From a virus: 30,355 nucleotides of DNA. Location: positions 1-30,355 of IMG/VR virus record IMGVR_UViG_3300036791_000272. The stretch is one strand, 5' to 3'. The notes under the pieces were generated by a model. It was not told the origin of the DNA, ran no database searches, and saw nothing but the letters and a program-made list of their open reading frames with translations. The translations under genes were made by a program, and so were the position numbers. This document shows, piece by piece, positions 9,211-30,355 of this stretch (its first letter is position 1; each line of letters begins with the position of its first letter).

Positions 9211-9675
9211 TCATGCGCTCTCGACGTTCTCCCAGTCGCCAGCCGGGGACATCGGCGCGTTGCCGCTCTCGATGCGGGCGCGGCTGCACGGCGTGAAGCC
9301 AAGCTCCGACGCACCGCGCAGCATGAGTTGGTATTGGCGGTTGACGATGGGCAGGTACGGATTCTGCATCGGCAGTTCCTGCTTCGGACTCTTCACGAGA
9401 AGCGTGGTCTGCTGCATCGCCACCGACGCCTTCTGATGCACGTCCTCCGCGACGATGAACGCGGCCAGCACGGCCTTGTCGATGCGCTTGAGCACGCCGC
9501 GCGGTGCGTTCTCGATGGCGTACTTCCAGGCTGTTTTCTGGTCCGCGCTGAACCAGTCGGGCGGACTCATCAAGTCGCCGGGAGTCGGGATCTGCTTCTT
9601 CGCCAGCTTCACCGCTTCCTTGCCCCCGGCACGCAGAATCTTGAGCGTCGTTGGCATCCGCTTGCGTCCCGTCAT
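9211..9675 (-). CDS. terS: Small terminase subunit, P27 family
   Basis: This 154-residue protein recognises phage DNA and recruits the large subunit. The P27-type pattern is clear: GRKRMPTTLKILRAGGK at the start (basic, DNA-facing), PGDLMSPPDWFSADQKTAWKYA, then the conserved YLPIVNRQYQLMLRGASELGFTPCSRARI (residues 107-135). It starts at ATG 9675 with GGGGGA upstream. Its 5' end lies 23 bp from the opposing ASCH gene start, so the two starts face away from each other. Confidence 0.9.
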   Translation of the reverse strand: MTGRKRMPTTLKILRAGGKEAVKLAKKQIPTPGDLMSPPDWFSADQKTAWKYAIENAPRGVLKRIDKAVLAAFIVAEDVHQKASVAMQQTTLLVKSPKQELPMQNPYLPIVNRQYQLMLRGASELGFTPCSRARIESGNAPMSPAGDWENVESA

Positions 9676-9698: not shown

Positions 9699-9956
9699 GT
9701 GCTGCTCTTGATCAAGAAGAAATACTTCGACCAGATTGTCGCGGGCACGAAGACCTACGAGATCCGCGCCGGATCGCGTTACCGGAACATCAAAGCCGGG
9801 GATCGGCTGAGTCTCAACGGACGCGCCCGCTTCCCGGTGGTGCGCGTGCAGGAGTTCAGTCACGCCGAGCAACTGCCGGAAGACGTTTCCGATTGCTACG
9901 CCGCCGATCATCCGGGTCCGTTCTTCGTGTTTCATCTCGGTCCTCAAATCACGTAG
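9699..9956 (+). CDS. ASCH-domain protein
   Basis: This gene runs against all its neighbours. From the GTG at 9699 the protein is about 85 residues: LLLIKKKYFDQIVAGTKTYEIRAGSRYRNIKAGDRLSLNG. That is the ASCH fold signature (hydrophobic-KK-x-F-x-x-I-x-x-G-x-K-x-x-E-I-R ... I-K-x-G-D). ASCH proteins belong to the PUA-like superfamily that binds RNA or modified bases; the E. coli member YqfB hydrolyses N4-acetylcytidine. An ATG further upstream (9651) would overlap the terminase start and add unrelated residues. Its 3' end overlaps the CoA-transferase end by 13 bp, tail to tail. A role as reader or eraser of a modified base is inference. Confidence 0.85.
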   Translation: MLLLIKKKYFDQIVAGTKTYEIRAGSRYRNIKAGDRLSLNGRARFPVVRVQEFSHAEQLPEDVSDCYAADHPGPFFVFHLGPQIT

Positions 9957-10630
9957 CGCCCGTCGCGATGCCGCAAATGCTCTGCCCGCCATGCGTCGTC
10001 GCGCGGCGTCTCCCGGTAGACCACGTCGCGGTACTCGATGACGACGCCGTTCTCTTCGCTGTAGTCGTAGAGATCGCGGTCCCACGGCACGCGCTTGCCA
10101 TCGCGCTCGACGGCGACGACCATCTCGCCCTCGACCAGCTTCGCGAGACACGTCGCCTGGAAGAGCGTGAAGTGCCCGCACTCTTTGCTGGCGAGTAGCT
10201 TGAACGCCAGCCACAGGCCCGCGCTCGTGTCGCCGATGTAGAAGGGCATGTACGGCGCATGATCGCCCCACGCCCGCATCTGCGCCAGCGCGTCGAAGCT
10301 CACCTCGCCCACGTCGGCCCGCATACTGACCCATCGCACGCCGAAGGTCGCGGCGAGATGCGCCGGATCGAGGCCGAAGCGTTCCAGCGTCGCGGGCCGG
10401 AAGTTGTCGATCACGGCGTCGAACTGATCGAGCGCTTCGGGCACGAATCGCGCACTGTGCTTGACCAGCGCCTTGCCATGATTGATCCACTCCCAGAGCG
10501 CGGCCCCGTGGTTCAGCCCCTGAATCGGATCACTGTCGCCGACCCACTTCACGATCTCGTGCCCTTGCTCCGCGAGGATCATACCCGCGTAGGCTGGCAC
10601 CACGTAGTTGCCCAGTTCCAGAATTCTCAC
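9944..10630 (-). CDS. Short CaiB/BaiF-type (family III) CoA-transferase
   Basis: This 228-residue protein starts with GTG 10630, overlapping the PanD-like stop by 4 bp (GTGA). It carries the family III CoA-transferase N-terminal pattern: RILELGNYVVPAYAGMILAEQGHEIVKW, then NHGKALVKHSA, DAVIDNFRPATLERFGLDP, and later YIGDTSAGLWLAFKLLAS. Asp134 in YIGDTSAG is where I would place the catalytic aspartate, by analogy with formyl-CoA transferase, from memory. Full enzymes are about 400 residues and interlock as dimers, so this is a compact version. The family moves CoA between carboxylic acids. Finding it inside a phage packaging block is unusual. Substrate unknown. Confidence 0.87.
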   Translation of the reverse strand: MRILELGNYVVPAYAGMILAEQGHEIVKWVGDSDPIQGLNHGAALWEWINHGKALVKHSARFVPEALDQFDAVIDNFRPATLERFGLDPAHLAATFGVRWVSMRADVGEVSFDALAQMRAWGDHAPYMPFYIGDTSAGLWLAFKLLASKECGHFTLFQATCLAKLVEGEMVVAVERDGKRVPWDRDLYDYSEENGVVIEYRDVVYRETPRDDAWRAEHLRHRDGRYVI

Positions 10631-11028
10631 GGCAATACCAGATCGTCGGTCGGCTCGAACACTTCGAGATCGACGTCGCCTTGCCCGCTGATCACCTCGC
10701 ATGACGTGATCTGGTTCGACTCGTTGACGTGAACCACGCGCGTCTTCGGGCGTCGGCCCGCCGTCTCGAACGTCATCAGCAAGCAGCGGTCGTTCACCTC
10801 GCCGAGCCGCGCGGCTGCGCCGTTCAAGCGAAACTCTCCCGGTGCGCCGACGATGATGTACGTCCACCATCGCTGGCCGTTGTTCAGATTCGCGACGAGC
10901 ACGCGCTCGTACGGCTCCATGCCCGCCGCCTTGAGCAGTTCCGGCGAGACGCCGACGGAGCCGTGATACTCGACGCTCTTGTCGGTCACGCGCAGCCCGT
11001 GAATCTTGCCGCAGAGAAACGTCTTCAT
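10627..11028 (-). CDS. PanD-like aspartate 1-decarboxylase
   Basis: This 133-residue protein resembles PanD, the pyruvoyl enzyme that makes beta-alanine from aspartate for pantothenate and CoA synthesis. Visible matches are FLCGKIHGLRVT at the start (Lys8), YHGSVGVSPELLKAAGM with the Gly23-Ser24 self-cleavage site, NNGQRWWTYI with Arg53, Thr56 and Tyr57, and LNGAAARLGEVNDRCLLMTF. Each counterpart is functional in cellular PanD. Residues 95-133 are a divergent tail. ATG 11028 overlaps the ABC-GNAT stop by 4 bp. The sequence therefore looks capable of self-processing. Whether it acts on aspartate or a related amino acid cannot be told. Confidence 0.87.
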   Translation of the reverse strand: MKTFLCGKIHGLRVTDKSVEYHGSVGVSPELLKAAGMEPYERVLVANLNNGQRWWTYIIVGAPGEFRLNGAAARLGEVNDRCLLMTFETAGRRPKTRVVHVNESNQITSCEVISGQGDVDLEVFEPTDDLVLP

Positions 11029-12155
11029 GCGATTGCCTCCTGAAGAACGGCCACGGGGCAGTACTCGAAGCTCAACGTGTTGAGCCGCCGCGTCTGCAAT
11101 TGCGCGTGTGCCCGTCCCTTGTTCGCGCCTTTGCCCGCGCGGATCGCGGGCCGTCCGTTGCCGCTCGTGTGGTCCGCGTAGAGACGCCGCCAGCGCGGAG
11201 AGCGCAGATAGTACGCGATGATCGCCGGATGCGCCACCGTGTTGTGGTAGCGGAATCCGCGGTCATGCAGCCACTGCCCGATGAAGTCGTCGAAGCGCCC
11301 GCCGAGTCCGACGCCTTGCCAGTCGGGCAGCACGACCAGACGGTGCCCCATCTTGATGTTGCGGGTGTACGCGTGGGGCAGATGCAGCACTGAGTTGAAC
11401 GCGACGGGCTGGCCGTCGATGGTCGCGACGAAGCACTTGGCCGCGCTCTGGAGTTCGGTGCTCAGATAGTGATGACTCCTAAACATCGGCCAGAGTTCGC
11501 GGCCACACTCGCGGATCTCGAAACGAAGCTCCGGGTGTCGCTGAAGCTCCCTCCACTGAAACGCGCCCGTGGCTGGCTCGTACACCCAGTCGGGCTGCAA
11601 CCAATCGACGATGTCGAAGTGGCACGAGACGGCGATGAACTGCCGCCCGCGTCGGCGGATGGTCTTCTGGATCGCGTGCGCGGCCACCTTCGCGACTTGC
11701 CTATCGACGACGCTCGTGAACTCGTCGAGCACCACGAGCGCGGGATTCTCGGCGAGAGCGCGGGCGCACGTCACGCGGAATTGTTCGCCGTTCGAGAGCA
11801 CATGAAACGGGCGCAGCCATGCGGGCGGCGAGTTGAAGCCCACGCTCGAAAGCGCTTCGACGACATCGCGCACGGCCATCGCTTCGGGGAAACTGTCGAG
11901 CACCGAATGATCGCGCGGCCAGTCGAAGCCCGCGACCATCGACGGGCCGAAGAGTTCGCTAGCGATGCTCGTCTTCCCGCAGCCCGACGGACCCACGATC
12001 AGGCCGACGTTCCACTCGCGCTGCTCGATGGGCAGATCGGCGTCCCATTCGAGACGCATGTGCTTCTCGGGCGCGATGTCGAAGAGCGCCGAGAGTTGCA
12101 TCACGCGCGGCGAACGCGTCAACGTGGCTTCGCGGACTACATGAGTGCGCGGCAT
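11025..12155 (-). CDS. ABC-type ATPase fused to GNAT acyltransferase
   Basis: This 376-residue fusion has a soluble ABC ATPase domain (residues 15-200): Walker A GPSGCGKT (55-62), signature LSNGEQ (120-125), Walker B LVVLDE (140-145), D-loop SVVDR, and switch His179. There are no membrane segments, so it is not a transporter. Residues 211-325 are a GNAT domain with the acyl-CoA binding motif VLPDWQGVGLGGRF (275-288) and HHYLS (228-232). The latter recalls the HHYS region of Mom-type DNA modifying GNAT proteins, a tentative likeness. GAGG precedes ATG 12155, and the gene overlaps ParB by 19 bp. Likely role: ATP-driven, DNA- or protein-directed acyl transfer. Confidence 0.9.
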   Translation of the reverse strand: MPRTHVVREATLTRSPRVMQLSALFDIAPEKHMRLEWDADLPIEQREWNVGLIVGPSGCGKTSIASELFGPSMVAGFDWPRDHSVLDSFPEAMAVRDVVEALSSVGFNSPPAWLRPFHVLSNGEQFRVTCARALAENPALVVLDEFTSVVDRQVAKVAAHAIQKTIRRRGRQFIAVSCHFDIVDWLQPDWVYEPATGAFQWRELQRHPELRFEIRECGRELWPMFRSHHYLSTELQSAAKCFVATIDGQPVAFNSVLHLPHAYTRNIKMGHRLVVLPDWQGVGLGGRFDDFIGQWLHDRGFRYHNTVAHPAIIAYYLRSPRWRRLYADHTSGNGRPAIRAGKGANKGRAHAQLQTRRLNTLSFEYCPVAVLQEAIA

Positions 12156-12811
12156 TGCAGACCTCGCGTGGCGAATTCCTTCAACAGCCCGATTTGCTCC
12201 GTCTCGTCGGCGCACTCGATGATCACGCCGAAGGCAATTCGCGCTTCCTCGATGGGCGCGTCTCCCGGCGCGGCCAGCGGATCGCTGCGCATCAGTCGGT
12301 CGATCTCGGCGACGTCGAAGCCCGTGAGCGACAGATCCACGATGCCCTTCAGTTCGCCGACCTCGACGGCCAGAAGCGCGTCATCCCATTCGGCTTCGAG
12401 GTGAGAGCGGTTGTCCATCAGCCGATACGCCTTGATCTGCGCGGGCGACAGATCGTGAGCCACATGCACGGGCACTTCGGTCATGCCGAGTTGCTGCGCG
12501 GCGAGAAGCCGCGCGTGCCCGCACACGATCACGCCGTCGGCATCGACCACAATCGGTTGCCGCCATCCGAATTCGCGCAGCGATGCCGCGACCTTCGCGA
12601 CGGCGGCGGGCGGAATCTTCCGCGCGTTCCTCGCGTACGGGATCACGCGCGTGATGGCCCAAAGCTCGACGCGCAGAATGCCGTTTAAAGCGTCGGTGGT
12701 GACGGGTAAACGGCTCACCACTGGGTCGGTCGGCATCGGTTCGAGTGTTTGAGCGGTGGAACGGGCCGCGCGGCTCACAGACGTCTCCCTGAGTTGGTTT
12801 GGCGGGCGCAA
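12137..12811 (-). CDS. ParB-like nuclease-domain protein
   Basis: The protein is up to 224 residues. Residues about 47-135 form a ParB/Srx fold: VELWAITRVIPYARNARKIPPAAVAKVAASLREFGWRQPIVVDADGVIV, then CGHARLLAAQQLGM (the GHxR box) and PVHVAHDLSPAQIKAYRLMDNR. No helix-turn-helix CTP-type partition domain and no methylase follow. I use the TTG at 12811, which has GGAAGA upstream; an ATG at 12736 is the alternative but has no ribosome site. Stand-alone ParB-like proteins in phages often sit beside DNA modification or packaging genes. The 19-bp overlap with the ABC-GNAT gene suggests a shared job. Confidence 0.87.
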   Translation of the reverse strand: MRPPNQLRETSVSRAARSTAQTLEPMPTDPVVSRLPVTTDALNGILRVELWAITRVIPYARNARKIPPAAVAKVAASLREFGWRQPIVVDADGVIVCGHARLLAAQQLGMTEVPVHVAHDLSPAQIKAYRLMDNRSHLEAEWDDALLAVEVGELKGIVDLSLTGFDVAEIDRLMRSDPLAAPGDAPIEEARIAFGVIIECADETEQIGLLKEFATRGLQCRALM

Positions 12812-13084: not shown

Positions 13085-13432
13085 CTACGCGCCGTGACCG
13101 AGCACTTCGCGATGGGTCTTGACGGCGTGACAGTGAACGCACAAGCCTTGCCAGTTGCGCTGATTCCAGAACAGCGACGCGATGCCGCGATGCGGGATGA
13201 CGTGATCGAGTATGGTCGCGGCCTCGCGCTTGCACATGTTGCACACCGGATGGCGTACGAGGAACGAGTGACGCTGGCAGCGATAGAGTGCGCTCGACGG
13301 ATTGACGGTGCGGTCTGCGCTGAGAAACTCAGGCCGTGCAGTGCGTGCGTTGTGCGCTGCGCAGAATCCGCCATGCGTGGCATACTCGCGGCAGGTTGGA
13401 TGAGAGCATTCACGGTGTGCGCCATCCGGCAT
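13085..13432 (-). CDS. HNH endonuclease
   Basis: This 115-residue protein has the HNH layout: paired cysteines VCNMCKRE (64-67), the catalytic ILDHVIPHRG (His77), the WNQRNWQGLC asparagine region and CVHCHAVKT (98-104). The N-terminus carries another CxxC-rich stretch (CSHPTCREYA). AGGA lies upstream of the ATG. HNH proteins next to terminase genes are known partners of cos-type DNA packaging. Here it is separated from the small terminase by the acyl-transfer cassette, which probably inserted between them. Confidence 0.92.
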   Translation of the reverse strand: MPDGAHRECSHPTCREYATHGGFCAAHNARTARPEFLSADRTVNPSSALYRCQRHSFLVRHPVCNMCKREAATILDHVIPHRGIASLFWNQRNWQGLCVHCHAVKTHREVLGHGA

Positions 13433-20601: not shown

Positions 20602-21834
20602 ATGACCAAAAAACAAAACAACCTGACGATGTACAGACGGCACGCCGCATCCTGCGAAGTGAGCAAGCCGAAGATCCTCGACAAGTGCGAGTGCCCACTC
20701 TGGGTTCACGGCAAGTTGCGCGGAAAGTTCATCCGCGAGTCGCTCGAAACGCGCGGCCAGATCGCCGGATTGCTCAAAGTGCAAGCCATGCTCGACGGCA
20801 AGGGCGGCGACGATCCGACCCCCGGTGGCGGCATCGCGCTGATCGGCAACGTGCCCAATAGCGAGAGGACGCTCGAATCCGCCGTCGAAGTGCTGATGAG
20901 CGGCAAGAAGAAGAGAGCGTCGAATACCAAGAAGCTGTACACGAACGCCTTCGGCCACTTCCGCGCCTACGCCGAAGCCCACGAGCGCGTGCTGCTCTCG
21001 CAGATCGACACGGACTTCATGCACCAGTACTTCGCCGAGTACGACGCCGGATGGAAGCAAGCGACGGCGCAGGGGCGGCTCACCCACCTTCGCGTGCTCT
21101 TCAACTTCTGCAAGAAGAAGAAGTGGATCACCGATGCGCCGACCGCTGATGCGGACCTCAACTACACGAAGGGCAAGATCGGCACGGGGAAAGTGAAGCG
21201 CGTGCCCTTCAAGCCGCACGAAGTGACGGCCATTCTCGCCGCCATCGAGCAGTTGCCCGAAGAGATCCGCGACCGCGCCAGAGCGCTGATCTACCTGATG
21301 CTCTACACCGGATGCCGCATCAGCGATGCGACCTTCTTCGAGCGCGAGTACCTCACGGCGAGTAACACCGCGAACTACTACGTCATCAAAACGCGCAAGC
21401 TGATCAGCCTCGCGCCGGAAGTGCAGCAAGCCGCTCTCGACGCGCTGAAGCGCTTGCCCGAGTCGGACGTGTACTTCTTTCAGCCCGACGCCGACGACGA
21501 CTACAGAGCGGCTCGTACGGCCCTCCGCGACGGCGCGGAGTTCTCGACGCTGATGCCGGATTACGAAGCCCGAGTGCGCGAGACGACCGCGCTCGTTGTG
21601 AAAGTGCTCCGACTCGCGAAGCTCGACGGCGCGTGCCACCGCTTCCGCGACACGTTCGCCGTCAACGCGCTCACCACGGGCTGCGACATCTTCAGCCTGT
21701 CGCAGATGTTGGGGCACTCCGATGTCCGCATCACGCAAGATCATTACCTCAAGCTCGTCGATGGCTACCAAGTTCAGATGAGCCAGAAGACGCGCGGACT
21801 AGCGTACATCTTCCCGATGACCGTCGCGTCATAG
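20602..21834 (+). CDS. int: Tyrosine recombinase integrase
   Basis: This 410-residue enzyme inserts and excises the phage genome. Catalytic residues are visible: Arg239 in YTGCRISDA, Lys263 in VIKTRK, His346 and Arg349 in CHRFRDTF, His372 in LGHSDVRIT, and Tyr382 in HYLKL. Residues 90-175 form the SAM-like core-binding domain (NTKKLYTNAFGHFRAYAEAH). The N-terminus has MYRRHAASCE, DKCECPLWVHGKLRGKFIRESL, a Cys/His-rich segment I associate with acidobacterial integrases. It ends by overlapping the opposing HTH gene by 6 bp. Confidence 0.95.
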   Translation: MTKKQNNLTMYRRHAASCEVSKPKILDKCECPLWVHGKLRGKFIRESLETRGQIAGLLKVQAMLDGKGGDDPTPGGGIALIGNVPNSERTLESAVEVLMSGKKKRASNTKKLYTNAFGHFRAYAEAHERVLLSQIDTDFMHQYFAEYDAGWKQATAQGRLTHLRVLFNFCKKKKWITDAPTADADLNYTKGKIGTGKVKRVPFKPHEVTAILAAIEQLPEEIRDRARALIYLMLYTGCRISDATFFEREYLTASNTANYYVIKTRKLISLAPEVQQAALDALKRLPESDVYFFQPDADDDYRAARTALRDGAEFSTLMPDYEARVRETTALVVKVLRLAKLDGACHRFRDTFAVNALTTGCDIFSLSQMLGHSDVRITQDHYLKLVDGYQVQMSQKTRGLAYIFPMTVAS

Positions 21835-25726: not shown

Positions 25727-26683
25727 TTACTCCGCTTTGGTTGTCGGCGCGTCGGCGGGCTGCGCGGGATCGGCCCCGGCGTCATGCGCGAAACTGGGCG
25801 CGTTCATGATCGTGTCCCGCGCGGTGAGGCGCTTCTGTGGCTCGTCGCCCGTCATCAGTTCGCTCCAGCCGCTGATATCGACGGCCTCGTCGTCGCGCTC
25901 GACCGCATCGCGCACTTCGGGCGAGAGCGGCAACCACTTCGAGTGGCGGCGGAACGCGCTCTTCTTGCCCATCTCGTCGTAGTCGGTCGCCCACGGGCCG
26001 TTATCCGGCGACTTGCTCCGCTGGCGGATCTTCTCGACTTCGGTCGGCGTGAGCACGATGAAGTCTTCGCTCCCGTCCTTCAGCTTGACGAAGCTGTAAT
26101 ACGCGATCTTCTTCGTGCCGCGATCCACGCCGATCTTGTGCTTCAGATGCGCGTCGGTGCCGTAGCTGTAGCTCCATTCGTCCTTGTCGTAGACCACGTC
26201 GGCGTGAATGTAGCTCACGTCGCCGGATCGGCGCACGAGTTCAGCCAAGCCCTTGTAGTCGATGATCAGCGTGCATTCGACCAGCGTCCGCCGCTGCTTA
26301 CACTCGCACTTGCTGCACTGCTGGCCCTTGTGCGTGTCCATCTCGTGGCCGCACTGGCACATTTTGTTGTTTCTGAACGGGATCAGATGCGCCCGCCGCC
26401 CGTCGGGTTCCAGGCCGTATGCGCTGAGATCGAGCAGACATCGGAAGACAGTTTCCTTCGAGCAGTCGGCGAGAGCGGGCGTGCGCAGCATGGCCGTAAG
26501 CGTGACGCGCACGAAGCGTTCCGGCGTGATCGTGCGCGGCAACACGGCCTTTAGGGCGCCCTTGAATTCCGGCCCCTGAATCAGATCGCGCAGCGTGCGG
26601 GGCTGGCGGGCGAGTTGCTCCGTCGCGGCGTCGATCAGTTCCTTCTTCACGCCGGGATCGCTGATGGGTGCTTGCGGGTTCAT
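25727..26683 (-). CDS. recT: RecT-type single-strand annealing protein with zinc insertion
   Basis: This 318-residue protein shows the RecT layout: LRDLIQGPEFKGALKAVLPRTITPERFVRVTLTAML, then LLDLSAYGLEPDGRRAHLIPF, TLIIDYKGLAELVRRSGDVSYIHADVVYDKDEW, and DEMGKKSAFRRHSKWLPL. Between the two halves, residues 108-132 hold CQCGHEMDTHKG and CSKCECKQRR, a Cys/His-rich insert not present in standard RecT. It anneals phage DNA ends for recombination. The Pro/Ala C-terminus is flexible. It overlaps the exonuclease gene by 4 bp. Confidence 0.93.
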   Translation of the reverse strand: MNPQAPISDPGVKKELIDAATEQLARQPRTLRDLIQGPEFKGALKAVLPRTITPERFVRVTLTAMLRTPALADCSKETVFRCLLDLSAYGLEPDGRRAHLIPFRNNKMCQCGHEMDTHKGQQCSKCECKQRRTLVECTLIIDYKGLAELVRRSGDVSYIHADVVYDKDEWSYSYGTDAHLKHKIGVDRGTKKIAYYSFVKLKDGSEDFIVLTPTEVEKIRQRSKSPDNGPWATDYDEMGKKSAFRRHSKWLPLSPEVRDAVERDDEAVDISGWSELMTGDEPQKRLTARDTIMNAPSFAHDAGADPAQPADAPTTKAE

Positions 26684-27660
26684 GCCGCGACCTCTTTCGC
26701 TTCCGCCGCCGCTTCCGCGAGTGACGGATGGCTGATGTGAATCCGGCGTACGTTCGGCTTCGGGTGCGTGTAGAACTCCTCGCGCTCCTGACGCTGCGCC
26801 GGATCTTTCACGAACTCGTGCAGAAGCCCGATCGCCATCGGCTTGTAGTCGATCACGCTGGAGTCCTTCGGCTTGCGCCAAGTGAATCGACCGCGCTCTC
26901 CCCATCGCAGCCCCTCGTCGTCGCCGATGGCTTGCTTGATCAGGTTCTCGTACGTGTCGCGCTCCGTGGCGAGCTTCTTCTCCGCGATCCGTACCACAAG
27001 GTAAGCGTTGAGCAGTTGCGCCTCTTCGGGGGTCGCCTCGCGGATCGGCGGAAAGTGCATCGGGTGCATCCGCTGGAGCCACTGCGCGGCTTCGCGGCTG
27101 GCTCCCATCGCGGGCATCTCGTCGCCGATGATGTACCGCTCCCACCATTCGCCGACCCGCGCCACCATGACCTTCTCGACTTCCTCGTCGCGCGTGAACG
27201 TGTAGAAGCGTAGCCAGCCGCCGACGAGCGCGGCGACGAGACACTTGCTGAAGCCGAGCAGCAGCATGTACCAGATGCACTGAAGCTGCACGAAGAGCGG
27301 AGCCTCGTCGGCTTCGTGGCCCCAGTCCTTCCAGCGATCCGAGCCGACGACCTTCACCTCGACGACGGTATCGTCGCCCTTGACCCATCCGTCGGGCGTG
27401 CCGCCGACGAGCGGAAGCGTCGGATGGCGCAGCGTGGCGCGATTCGGGATGATCTCGCATCCGAGAATGCGCCCCGCCGCGTCGATGATCCCCGGCTCCA
27501 GGCACGTTCCCAGAATCATGTGCGAATCCGGCGTATCCTCGATCTCGCCGCCGCCCTTGTAGTGATTCCAGACATCCCACGCCGTCATGAACGGATGCAC
27601 GCCGAAGATCGCCGGAACGCGCGATCCGGTCATCAGACTATTTCGGACTCGATGATCCAT
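26680..27660 (-). CDS. YqaJ-type viral exonuclease
   Basis: This 326-residue exonuclease partners RecT. Its YqaJ features are TGSRVPAIFGVHPFMTAWDVW, ILGTCLEPGIIDAA (Glu55), PLVGGTPDGWV (Asp90), and VVEVKVVGS (Glu101, Lys103). It resects DNA 5' ends so that RecT can anneal them. The C-terminal half is helical and longer than in small lambda-type exonucleases. The start at ATG 27660 overlaps the upstream gene by 23 bp. Confidence 0.92.
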   Translation of the reverse strand: MDHRVRNSLMTGSRVPAIFGVHPFMTAWDVWNHYKGGGEIEDTPDSHMILGTCLEPGIIDAAGRILGCEIIPNRATLRHPTLPLVGGTPDGWVKGDDTVVEVKVVGSDRWKDWGHEADEAPLFVQLQCIWYMLLLGFSKCLVAALVGGWLRFYTFTRDEEVEKVMVARVGEWWERYIIGDEMPAMGASREAAQWLQRMHPMHFPPIREATPEEAQLLNAYLVVRIAEKKLATERDTYENLIKQAIGDDEGLRWGERGRFTWRKPKDSSVIDYKPMAIGLLHEFVKDPAQRQEREEFYTHPKPNVRRIHISHPSLAEAAAEAKEVAA

Positions 27661-29390: not shown

Positions 29391-30355
29391 TTATAAATTC
29401 GCTTCGCGCAAACGCGCGTCGATCTCGCGCAGCGCGTTGAGCATCATCCATTGCAAGTCGCTCGTGTTGAGCGCGAGAACTTCCGTCTCTTCGCCGCGTA
29501 TGTGCGCCACGATCTTTTGCACGCAGCCAGGAATCACGTCGGCGACATCCTGCGCCACCAGCCCGACACGCTCCAGCCCTTCCGGCGTTTCCGCCTCGCC
29601 GTTGTACTCGAACACGGTCGGGTGCAACTGCAAGAGCGTGTTCAGCCCTTCGAGATAGGGCCGTATGTTGCGCTTCGTGCGTACGTCGGAAGTTACCGTC
29701 CAGTTTGCGGAGGGCTTGCCCGCCGAGTCGTTCGCGAGTTGCAGATTGTAGGATGGCCCGCTCTGCATCCCGATGCCAACGCCGCCGCCGATAGGTTGCA
29801 GGAGGATGTTATAAAGTGATCCGTTGGCGTCGTCGCGCTGCGATTGAAACCACGTATCGCCCGCCGGATAGTGGCCGATCTGCAAGCCCCATCCTCCCGG
29901 CGTGAAGTAGACGCTGGCGTGATTCTGGCCCGCCACCGGACTGGCATAGCCCGTCGTGCTGACCGTGAAGCGTGCGGTCGTGTTCGTGGTGTTAATCGCA
30001 AGATTGTTATTAACAATGCTGACGACTATGTTGCTGCTGGCCTGATTGTAGATAAAGAAATCGTTCGCGTCGTTGTTATTCACAGAGCGCCCGATCATCC
30101 AGCCGCTGGCCTGAGCGGCACTCTCAAACCTCAGATAACTTTGGCTTGGGCCATAAATGGAGACGACCCCGTTCACGGTAAGAGCGGTATTGGGGGCGAT
30201 CATGTTGACGCCGACATTACCGCCGTTCGGATTGAGGCAGAGCGCGTTGACAGCGTTCGCTTGATACGTCTGAATGTAGCCCTTAAAGACACTGGTAGCG
30301 CCGTCCAGGAAGTATCCGAGAATCATCCGATATGCAGCGTTGTTGGTCGCTTCGC
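29391..30355 (-). CDS. Tail fibre/spike C-terminus with S74 chaperone, N-terminus beyond edge
   Basis: The frame stays open to the last base, so the N-terminal part is missing. The visible 321 codons contain beta-helix-like repeats (GGNVGVNM, LTVNGVVSIYG, NTTARFTVSTTGY, GVGIGMQSGPSYNLQL) and end in a peptidase S74 intramolecular chaperone: SDVRTKRNIRPYLEGLNTLLQLHPTVFEYNG, RVGLVAQDVADVIPG, LNTSDLQWMMLNALREID. The Ser and Lys of SDVRTK are the self-cleavage pair. The chaperone trimerises the fibre and then releases itself. It is the host-range determinant. Confidence 0.93.
   Translation of the reverse strand, partial: EATNNAAYRMILGYFLDGATSVFKGYIQTYQANAVNALCLNPNGGNVGVNMIAPNTALTVNGVVSIYGPSQSYLRFESAAQASGWMIGRSVNNNDANDFFIYNQASSNIVVSIVNNNLAINTTNTTARFTVSTTGYASPVAGQNHASVYFTPGGWGLQIGHYPAGDTWFQSQRDDANGSLYNILLQPIGGGVGIGMQSGPSYNLQLANDSAGKPSANWTVTSDVRTKRNIRPYLEGLNTLLQLHPTVFEYNGEAETPEGLERVGLVAQDVADVIPGCVQKIVAHIRGEETEVLALNTSDLQWMMLNALREIDARLREANL

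Follow-up and report, generated by a model that had tools for sequence, protein, structure and literature searches.

Why should a phage carry, among its packaging genes, a PanD-like aspartate decarboxylase and a short coenzyme A (CoA)-transferase coupled to a ParB-like protein and to an ABC ATPase fused to a GNAT acyltransferase (ABC-GNAT)? The question is raised by four minus-strand genes of a 30,355-base virus record (IMG/VR IMGVR_UViG_3300036791_000272), which was analysed at its full length and is referred to as the window. The ParB-like gene (12137..12736, 199 amino acids from an ATG at 12736), the ABC-GNAT gene (11025..12155, encoding a single protein with the ATPase preceding the GNAT domain), the PanD gene (10627..11028, 133 amino acids) and the short CoA-transferase gene (9944..10630, 228 amino acids from a GTG at 10630) overlap by 19, 4 and 4 base pairs (bp). 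Gene calls and matches to Pfam and PHROG agree with a first-pass annotation that had placed and named these four genes from the sequence; its ParB start at 12811, however, is an unlikely TTG, and the ATG at 12736 is preferred, in agreement with a relative on contig L003. The best answer, though a tentative one at about even odds, is phage DNA acyl-modification by an operon that supplies its own donor, in a beta-alanyl version.

Linkage of the four genes

Short CoA-transferases were surveyed in IMG/VR and GTDB contigs (designated here by L numbers), yielding 32 distinct examples, and counts were made on the 24 with at least 1.8 kb of upstream sequence. An ABC-GNAT gene lay upstream in all 24 and a ParB gene was present in 23, while PanD lay between ABC-GNAT and CoA-transferase in 20. 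Gene junctions were mostly -4 bp, and in most loci the PanD gene overlaps or abuts the CoA-transferase gene. The first-pass annotation had held that rare co-occurrence of these families would speak against its modification model; the linkage to ABC-GNAT was instead complete. The gene order was found again in divergent phages, and in the isolated Rhodococcus/Gordonia phage Jace gp85-gp88 are the four genes in unchanged order, with identities of 38, 53, 45 and 57%. Contigs L002 and L003 have identical overlaps. The L003 proteins are 89-95% identical to those of the window, and the ratio of nonsynonymous to synonymous substitution rates against L003 is 0.25 for ParB, 0.14 for ABC-GNAT, 0.27 for PanD and 0.25 for the CoA-transferase; the four genes are therefore maintained as proteins under purifying selection.

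ABC-GNAT itself is far more widespread, with 65 phage records and no fewer than 553 stretches of viral sequence containing it. A sample of 131 distinct full-length ABC-GNAT loci, which favours relatives of the window and of contig L066, contained a ParB match at 121 loci, a CoA-transferase at 23 and PanD at 19. The four genes had been described as one unit, and the cassette is indeed conserved, but in this sample only ParB and ABC-GNAT form the core; PanD and the CoA-transferase are an accessory module, present at roughly one in five of these loci. On an ABC-GNAT tree of 120 rows made by a quick method, PanD and the CoA-transferase are confined to one group of 41 rows (Shimodaira-Hasegawa-like approximate likelihood ratio test, SH-aLRT, 95) plus L009, and they were gained or lost within that group (12 changes with three labels vs. 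19.2 in shuffles).

This distribution bears on a purely metabolic explanation, in which PanD and the CoA-transferase would increase host CoA or redirect acyl-CoA metabolism, with the GNAT as a maturation partner of PanD like PanZ/PanM. PanD belongs to the CoA pathway and is activated by PanZ, itself a GNAT. However, both PanD and the CoA-transferase are missing from over 100 ABC-GNAT loci, which argues that the main role of the GNAT is independent of PanD, and other viral PanDs adjoin ATP-grasp and amidoligase genes, again a conjugation chemistry. A PanZ-like role of the GNAT was rejected because most ABC-GNATs occur without PanD, and we regard the metabolic explanation as a whole as very improbable.

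Conserved features of the encoded proteins

The PanD protein matches PF02261 with an expectation value (E) of 1.3e-28 and 99.6 bits against a gathering score of 25. It keeps the Gly23-Ser24 self-cleavage pair together with Lys8, His10, Tyr21, Arg53, Thr56, Tyr57 and Asn69, the counterparts of which in E. coli PanD, checked position by position, are G24-S25, K9, H11, Y22, R54, T57, Y58 and N72. The Gly-Ser site and the catalytic Lys9, Tyr22, Arg54, Thr57, Tyr58 and Asn72 are kept in all 16 PanDs wherever the sequence covers the site. Bacterial and phage PanDs thus have the pyruvoyl-enzyme cleavage site and the active-site residues in common, whereas the phage protein differs in sharing an operon with a CoA-transferase, in falling below the equivalog cut-off and in having W47 replaced by A or V. 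PanD matches in Enterococcus, Listeria and Staphylococcus 'phage' records were set aside, as they look like host contamination.

The CoA-transferase matches the CoA-transferase III family PF02515 (E 1.6e-9, 37.8 bits vs. a gathering score of 23.3), although its 228 amino acids correspond to the N-terminal part of the usual enzyme of ~400 amino acids (about 380-430 in Frc, CaiB and YfdE). Its predicted model has a mean predicted local distance difference test score (pLDDT) of 74, with residues 1-100 at 85 or above, and resembles Rv3272 (5yit; Z 17.6, root-mean-square deviation (rmsd) 2.6 Å, 170 residues aligned) and Frc (1t4c; Z 16.7, rmsd 2.5, 171 aligned), the class III match spanning residues 1-171 to 1-176 only. 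Asp134 aligns with the catalytic Asp169 of Frc (hhalign E 8e-7), and both this residue and a GDT motif are invariant in the alignment of short CoA-transferases. The N-terminal fold and the catalytic Asp are therefore common to the short protein and to Frc, CaiB and YfdE; unlike them, it lacks the rest of the chain and has no close solved relative, its family profile having found no match among PDB sequences.

In the ABC-GNAT protein, the ABC ATPase domain (11541..12155, minus strand, residues about 1-205; ABC_tran PF00005, 1e-8) has an intact Walker A (GPSGCGKT), signature (LSNGE), Walker B/D-loop (VVLDEFTSVVD) and H-loop (CH), and these motif columns are invariant in the family alignment. The GNAT domain (11025..11540, minus strand, residues about 206-376; PF13508, 6e-6) contains an acyl-CoA loop, QGVGLG, in which Q280 and G281 are invariant and G283 nearly so, and an HHYLS sequence in which H229 and Y230 are invariant. 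The predicted model has a pLDDT of 90.5, and its ABC domain resembles MJ0796 (1l2t; Z 15.9, rmsd 2.7, 180 aligned). With the whole protein as query, the list of PDB matches was filled by ABC domains, and a search of viral structures returned GNATs and one Mom at E 1.8e-4, a match that, judged from the predicted model, is a reflection of the common GNAT fold only. P335 and Oenococcus phages have ABC and GNAT as separate adjacent genes, and similar two-piece matches occur in Streptococcus phages.

The first-pass annotation knew of no characterised system with this set of genes. A Tenacibaculum phage pT24 protein belongs to the same family as the window ABC-GNAT (77% covered, 35.8% identity), and ABC ATPase-coupled GNATs, pT24 being named, had been predicted by Iyer et al. 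2013 to carry out an uncharacterised DNA acyl modification (cited in PMC7824862). The two systems are homologous and alike in having ABC ATPase and GNAT in one protein or adjacent genes. The summary of the earlier prediction in PMC7824862 does not mention the PanD and CoA-transferase module, ASCH, alternative donor modules or an exchange with Mom. DNA acylation by ABC-GNAT was thus predicted before; for the donor module no report was found in the literature, with Iyer et al. 2013 represented by the paper citing it. A literature search for COG2401 was without result.

The ParB-like protein matches PHROG 620 (phrog_620) at 5.4e-47, and its score for ParB/Srx (PF02195), 23.9 bits, is below the gathering score of 26.3. 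It shares with other ParBs that precede ABC-GNAT genes a C-terminal motif, GVxVxCxxExEQxxLLxxFxxxGLxxRAL. This motif also occurs alone before ABC-GNAT, as a 42-residue protein in Porphyromonas phage 007a (L115:3873-4001), labelled 'acr candidate', and as a 49-residue protein in Komp_PAO1_1 (L266:3316-3465), so it is the motif and not the ParB domain that seems to be tied to ABC-GNAT. From their sequences, the two small proteins are probably adaptors rather than anti-CRISPR proteins. DNA targeting, the part originally assigned to ParB, may therefore be only some of its function, or its function may be another.

Exchange of ABC-GNAT with Mom

If the GNAT transfers an acyl group, what receives it? 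Mom of phage Mu (PF25680), which makes N6-carbamoylmethyladenine in DNA, was the precedent put forward in the first-pass annotation, and in related phages ABC-GNAT does occupy Mom's place. The Arthrobacter phage StevieBAY has the locus gp69-ParB-gp71-Mom-HTH-clamp (HTH, helix-turn-helix) and EastWest the locus gp73-ParB-ABC-GNAT-...-HTH-clamp, with flanking proteins 63, 83 and 46% identical and ParBs 53% identical over residues 5-137; the EastWest ABC-GNAT is one of those that lack donor genes. In Porphyromonas, flanks of 91.7% and 83% identity enclose Mom in prophage 012a and ABC-GNAT with a formyltransferase-fold gene in 007a. A ParB gene is also paired with Mom in Appa. The ParB C termini differ, being CPNC... 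(CPxC knuckle-like) with Mom and of the GVxVxC type with ABC-GNAT.

A relationship to Mom is not detectable by sequence. PF25680 was not among the Pfam matches of the window ABC-GNAT at E<=1, while control matches gave 2.4e-75 for Mu Mom and 1.6e-60 for StevieBAY Mom, and hhalign of the whole protein and of its GNAT part against Mom detected no relation (probability 0.1% against the Mom alignment). The link to Mom is accordingly drawn from the locus swaps and the common ParB partners. Both are phage proteins of GNAT fold whose GNAT domain has an invariant His-Tyr close to its beginning, and ABC-GNAT differs in its added ABC ATPase, its dedicated donor genes and the other C terminus of its ParB partner.

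The acyl group might instead go to host or phage RNA or protein (tRNA, host polymerase or a capsid protein), the ParB and terminase neighbourhood being incidental. An ATPase-GNAT enzyme, TmcA, acts on tRNA and provides an RNA-modifying precedent for the architecture. The ParB and ABC-GNAT core often precedes terminase genes (P335, Pmp13, LE4, SL25 and AnClar, with PHROG terminase matches downstream), but the Jace operon does not adjoin the large terminase gene, and some phage GNATs do act on proteins of the host, as described for Rac in PMC7824862. Against such targets stand the replacement of ABC-GNAT by a DNA-modifying Mom at the same locus in two phage groups and the pairing with ParB at 121 of the 131 loci, ParB being a partner of Mom as well. 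By analogy with Mom, DNA as the target gains support from these exchanges, and we consider an RNA or protein target unlikely.

A proposed beta-alanyl donor pathway

The proximity of PanD to the CoA-transferase leads us to beta-alanyl-CoA as the donor. In the proposed pathway, PanD would convert aspartate to beta-alanine, whose carboxylate would then receive CoA from a cellular acyl-CoA through the short CoA-transferase to form beta-alanyl-CoA. Other enzymes are known to transfer CoA to beta-alanine (PMC4619459, PMC13042692). With this donor the GNAT would acylate an exocyclic amine in DNA, that of adenine (N6) or cytosine (N4) being the likeliest, and the base would then carry the beta-alanyl group as a positively charged amide. 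The ABC ATPase, bridged to the ParB-like protein through the C-terminal motif, may couple ATP to DNA loading or movement. The modification would likely serve, like that made by Mom, to shield the phage genome against nucleases of the host. The first-pass annotation had drawn a pathway in which PanD supplied an amine and the CoA-transferase activated a separate acid; gene linkage, catalytic residues and the place shared with Mom favour the pathway, but its two inputs are most simply reduced to one donor.

Several points weigh against this proposal. The identities of the substrates, DNA as the target, the role of ATP, that of the ASCH protein described below and the purpose are steps that we infer. 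The PanD score of 74.1 bits is under the cut-off of 106 for the NCBI panD equivalog TIGR00223. The activity of the CoA-transferase and its acid substrate are only putative, because the protein lacks the C-terminal region that known class III enzymes have, and no sequence relation between ABC-GNAT and Mom was detected. Since most ABC-GNATs have no donor genes, the core may use ordinary acyl-CoA. Finally, the CoA-transferase occurs without PanD in 4 of the 24 loci, where host beta-alanine or another acid must therefore serve; PanD was not found elsewhere on those contigs, which may be incomplete.

The loci without PanD and the sub-threshold equivalog score would also fit DNA acylation with a group other than beta-alanyl, in which PanD acts on another amino acid or aids CoA supply, or another acid is charged. 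Class III CoA-transferases accept many acids. The active-site residues of PanD, however, match those of the aspartate enzyme at the catalytic positions checked, and the close apposition of the PanD and CoA-transferase genes fits a direct product-substrate relation. A non-beta-alanyl group, though worth keeping in view, appears rather unlikely.

If the beta-alanyl proposal is true, the system would be a DNA modification with a donor made by phage genes and a chemistry, a beta-alanine amide, that can be read from the genome. As an analogue that comes with its donor pathway, it bears on the old open question of what Mom-type enzymes use as donor, and Jace, as an isolated phage with the whole cassette, makes the prediction directly testable. 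A cationic DNA base and the enzymes that make it would have uses as tools and account for another phage route past restriction.

Possible alternative donor modules and the ASCH gene

Other ABC-GNAT loci have different helper genes in the same place. A formyltransferase-fold gene is coupled after ABC-GNAT in AnClar (gp3, L113:2312-2962), Porphyromonas 007a (L115:5128-5601) and Komp_PAO1_1 (L266:4574-5191), with PF00551 matches of 3e-17 to 5e-10, and by similarity in L063 (L063:2301-2825). The AnClar, 007a and L063 ABC-GNATs form one clade of their own (support 100). The formyltransferase-fold enzymes may alter the donor or add a formyl group to an amine already installed. The AnClar gene is annotated 'tRNA-methyltransferase'. 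At L066:4708-5274 a class I CoA-transferase subunit (PF01144, 2e-34) overlaps the ABC-GNAT gene; the contig ends at the apparent start of a partner subunit. In L068, which has an ABC-GNAT 74% identical to the L066 protein, a hexapeptide-repeat transferase gene (L068:1909-2382) overlaps ABC-GNAT and is followed by a convergent ASCH gene. Because two unrelated CoA-transferase families occupy the same place, the helper genes appear to serve an acyl-CoA donor, and their variety suggests exchangeable donor modules.

A convergent ASCH-domain gene also closes the window operon (9699..9956, plus strand; PF04266, 21.7 bits vs. a cut-off of 21.2), overlapping the 3' end of the CoA-transferase gene; the first-pass gene list, otherwise sound for the four operon genes, had missed it. 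Such a gene lies at the operon 3' end in 20 of 123 distinct ABC-GNAT loci, on the opposite strand in 20 of 20, against 1.0 expected from the same-contig background (P ~1e-19, simple binomial), and more often in cassette loci (9/21) than in core-only loci (11/102; P 0.001). Seven of the ten ASCH proteins tested scored above the Pfam cut-off, with that of L024 just below and two unmatched. Jace gp89 (L005:8211-8563), annotated as helix-turn-helix, appears to be an ASCH protein with its annotated start too late.

Domains of the PUA superfamily, including ASCH, inspect modified bases (PMC12707154, PMC11037411), and the E. coli ASCH protein YqfB hydrolyses N4-acylcytosines with Thr24 as nucleophile (PMC6972931). 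The phage proteins share with this N4-acylcytidine amidohydrolase the ASCH domain and the Lys21 and Arg26 positions, but the Thr24 position (K-x-x-T-x-R) is Glu in all 49 motif-bearing ASCH sequences. A YqfB-like eraser was dropped on this ground, and reading is more likely than erasing, so that the ASCH protein may read the modified base. The ASCH neighbour hints at an acylated base, no more. A broader proposal, and a decidedly speculative one, is that ParB and ABC-GNAT are surrounded by an interchangeable acyl-donor toolkit (PanD with a class III CoA-transferase, a class I CoA-transferase or a formyltransferase-fold enzyme) that would yield different new bases with an ASCH reader, N-beta-alanyl-adenine or -cytosine being the base in the window phage.

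Genomic context and additional observations

Some viral PanDs lack an ABC-GNAT partner and are coupled to genes for an ATP-grasp ligase, an amidoligase or a TauD-like protein (L232, L239, L240, L241, L245, L247, L249, L250, L252, L253 and L259); these are possibly other beta-alanine conjugation systems. L018 (L018:3035-4138) and near-identical contigs contain another ABC-GNAT gene 44 bp downstream of the CoA-transferase gene, giving two acyltransferases per cassette. A gene of ~145 amino acids recurs just after ABC-GNAT (L087, L128, L132, L133, L136 and L181), and those of L087 and L136, which were tested, had no significant Pfam or PHROG match. In a single case, which was left unused, S-adenosylmethionine decarboxylase, a pyruvoyl enzyme, is encoded just after ABC-GNAT (L178:4840-5211).

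The window operon lies inside the packaging block, as first proposed, between an HNH endonuclease gene upstream of ParB (13432..13085, minus strand, with Pfam and PHROG matches) and the terminase small subunit gene (9675..9211, minus strand; PF05119, 1.3e-12, phrog_83). The head block is of HK97 type on the minus strand, in the order HNH, operon, terminase small subunit, terminase large subunit, portal and capsid. Only the ParB part of a methyltransferase model and the ABC part of mad3 among the PADLOC defence-system models matched the operon, and searches of the window for RNA families and tRNAs found none. The window also encodes an integrase (20602-21834, plus strand), RecT (25727-27580, minus strand) and an endosialidase-chaperone (S74) protein (29391-30326, minus strand), and the virus is a temperate tailed phage.

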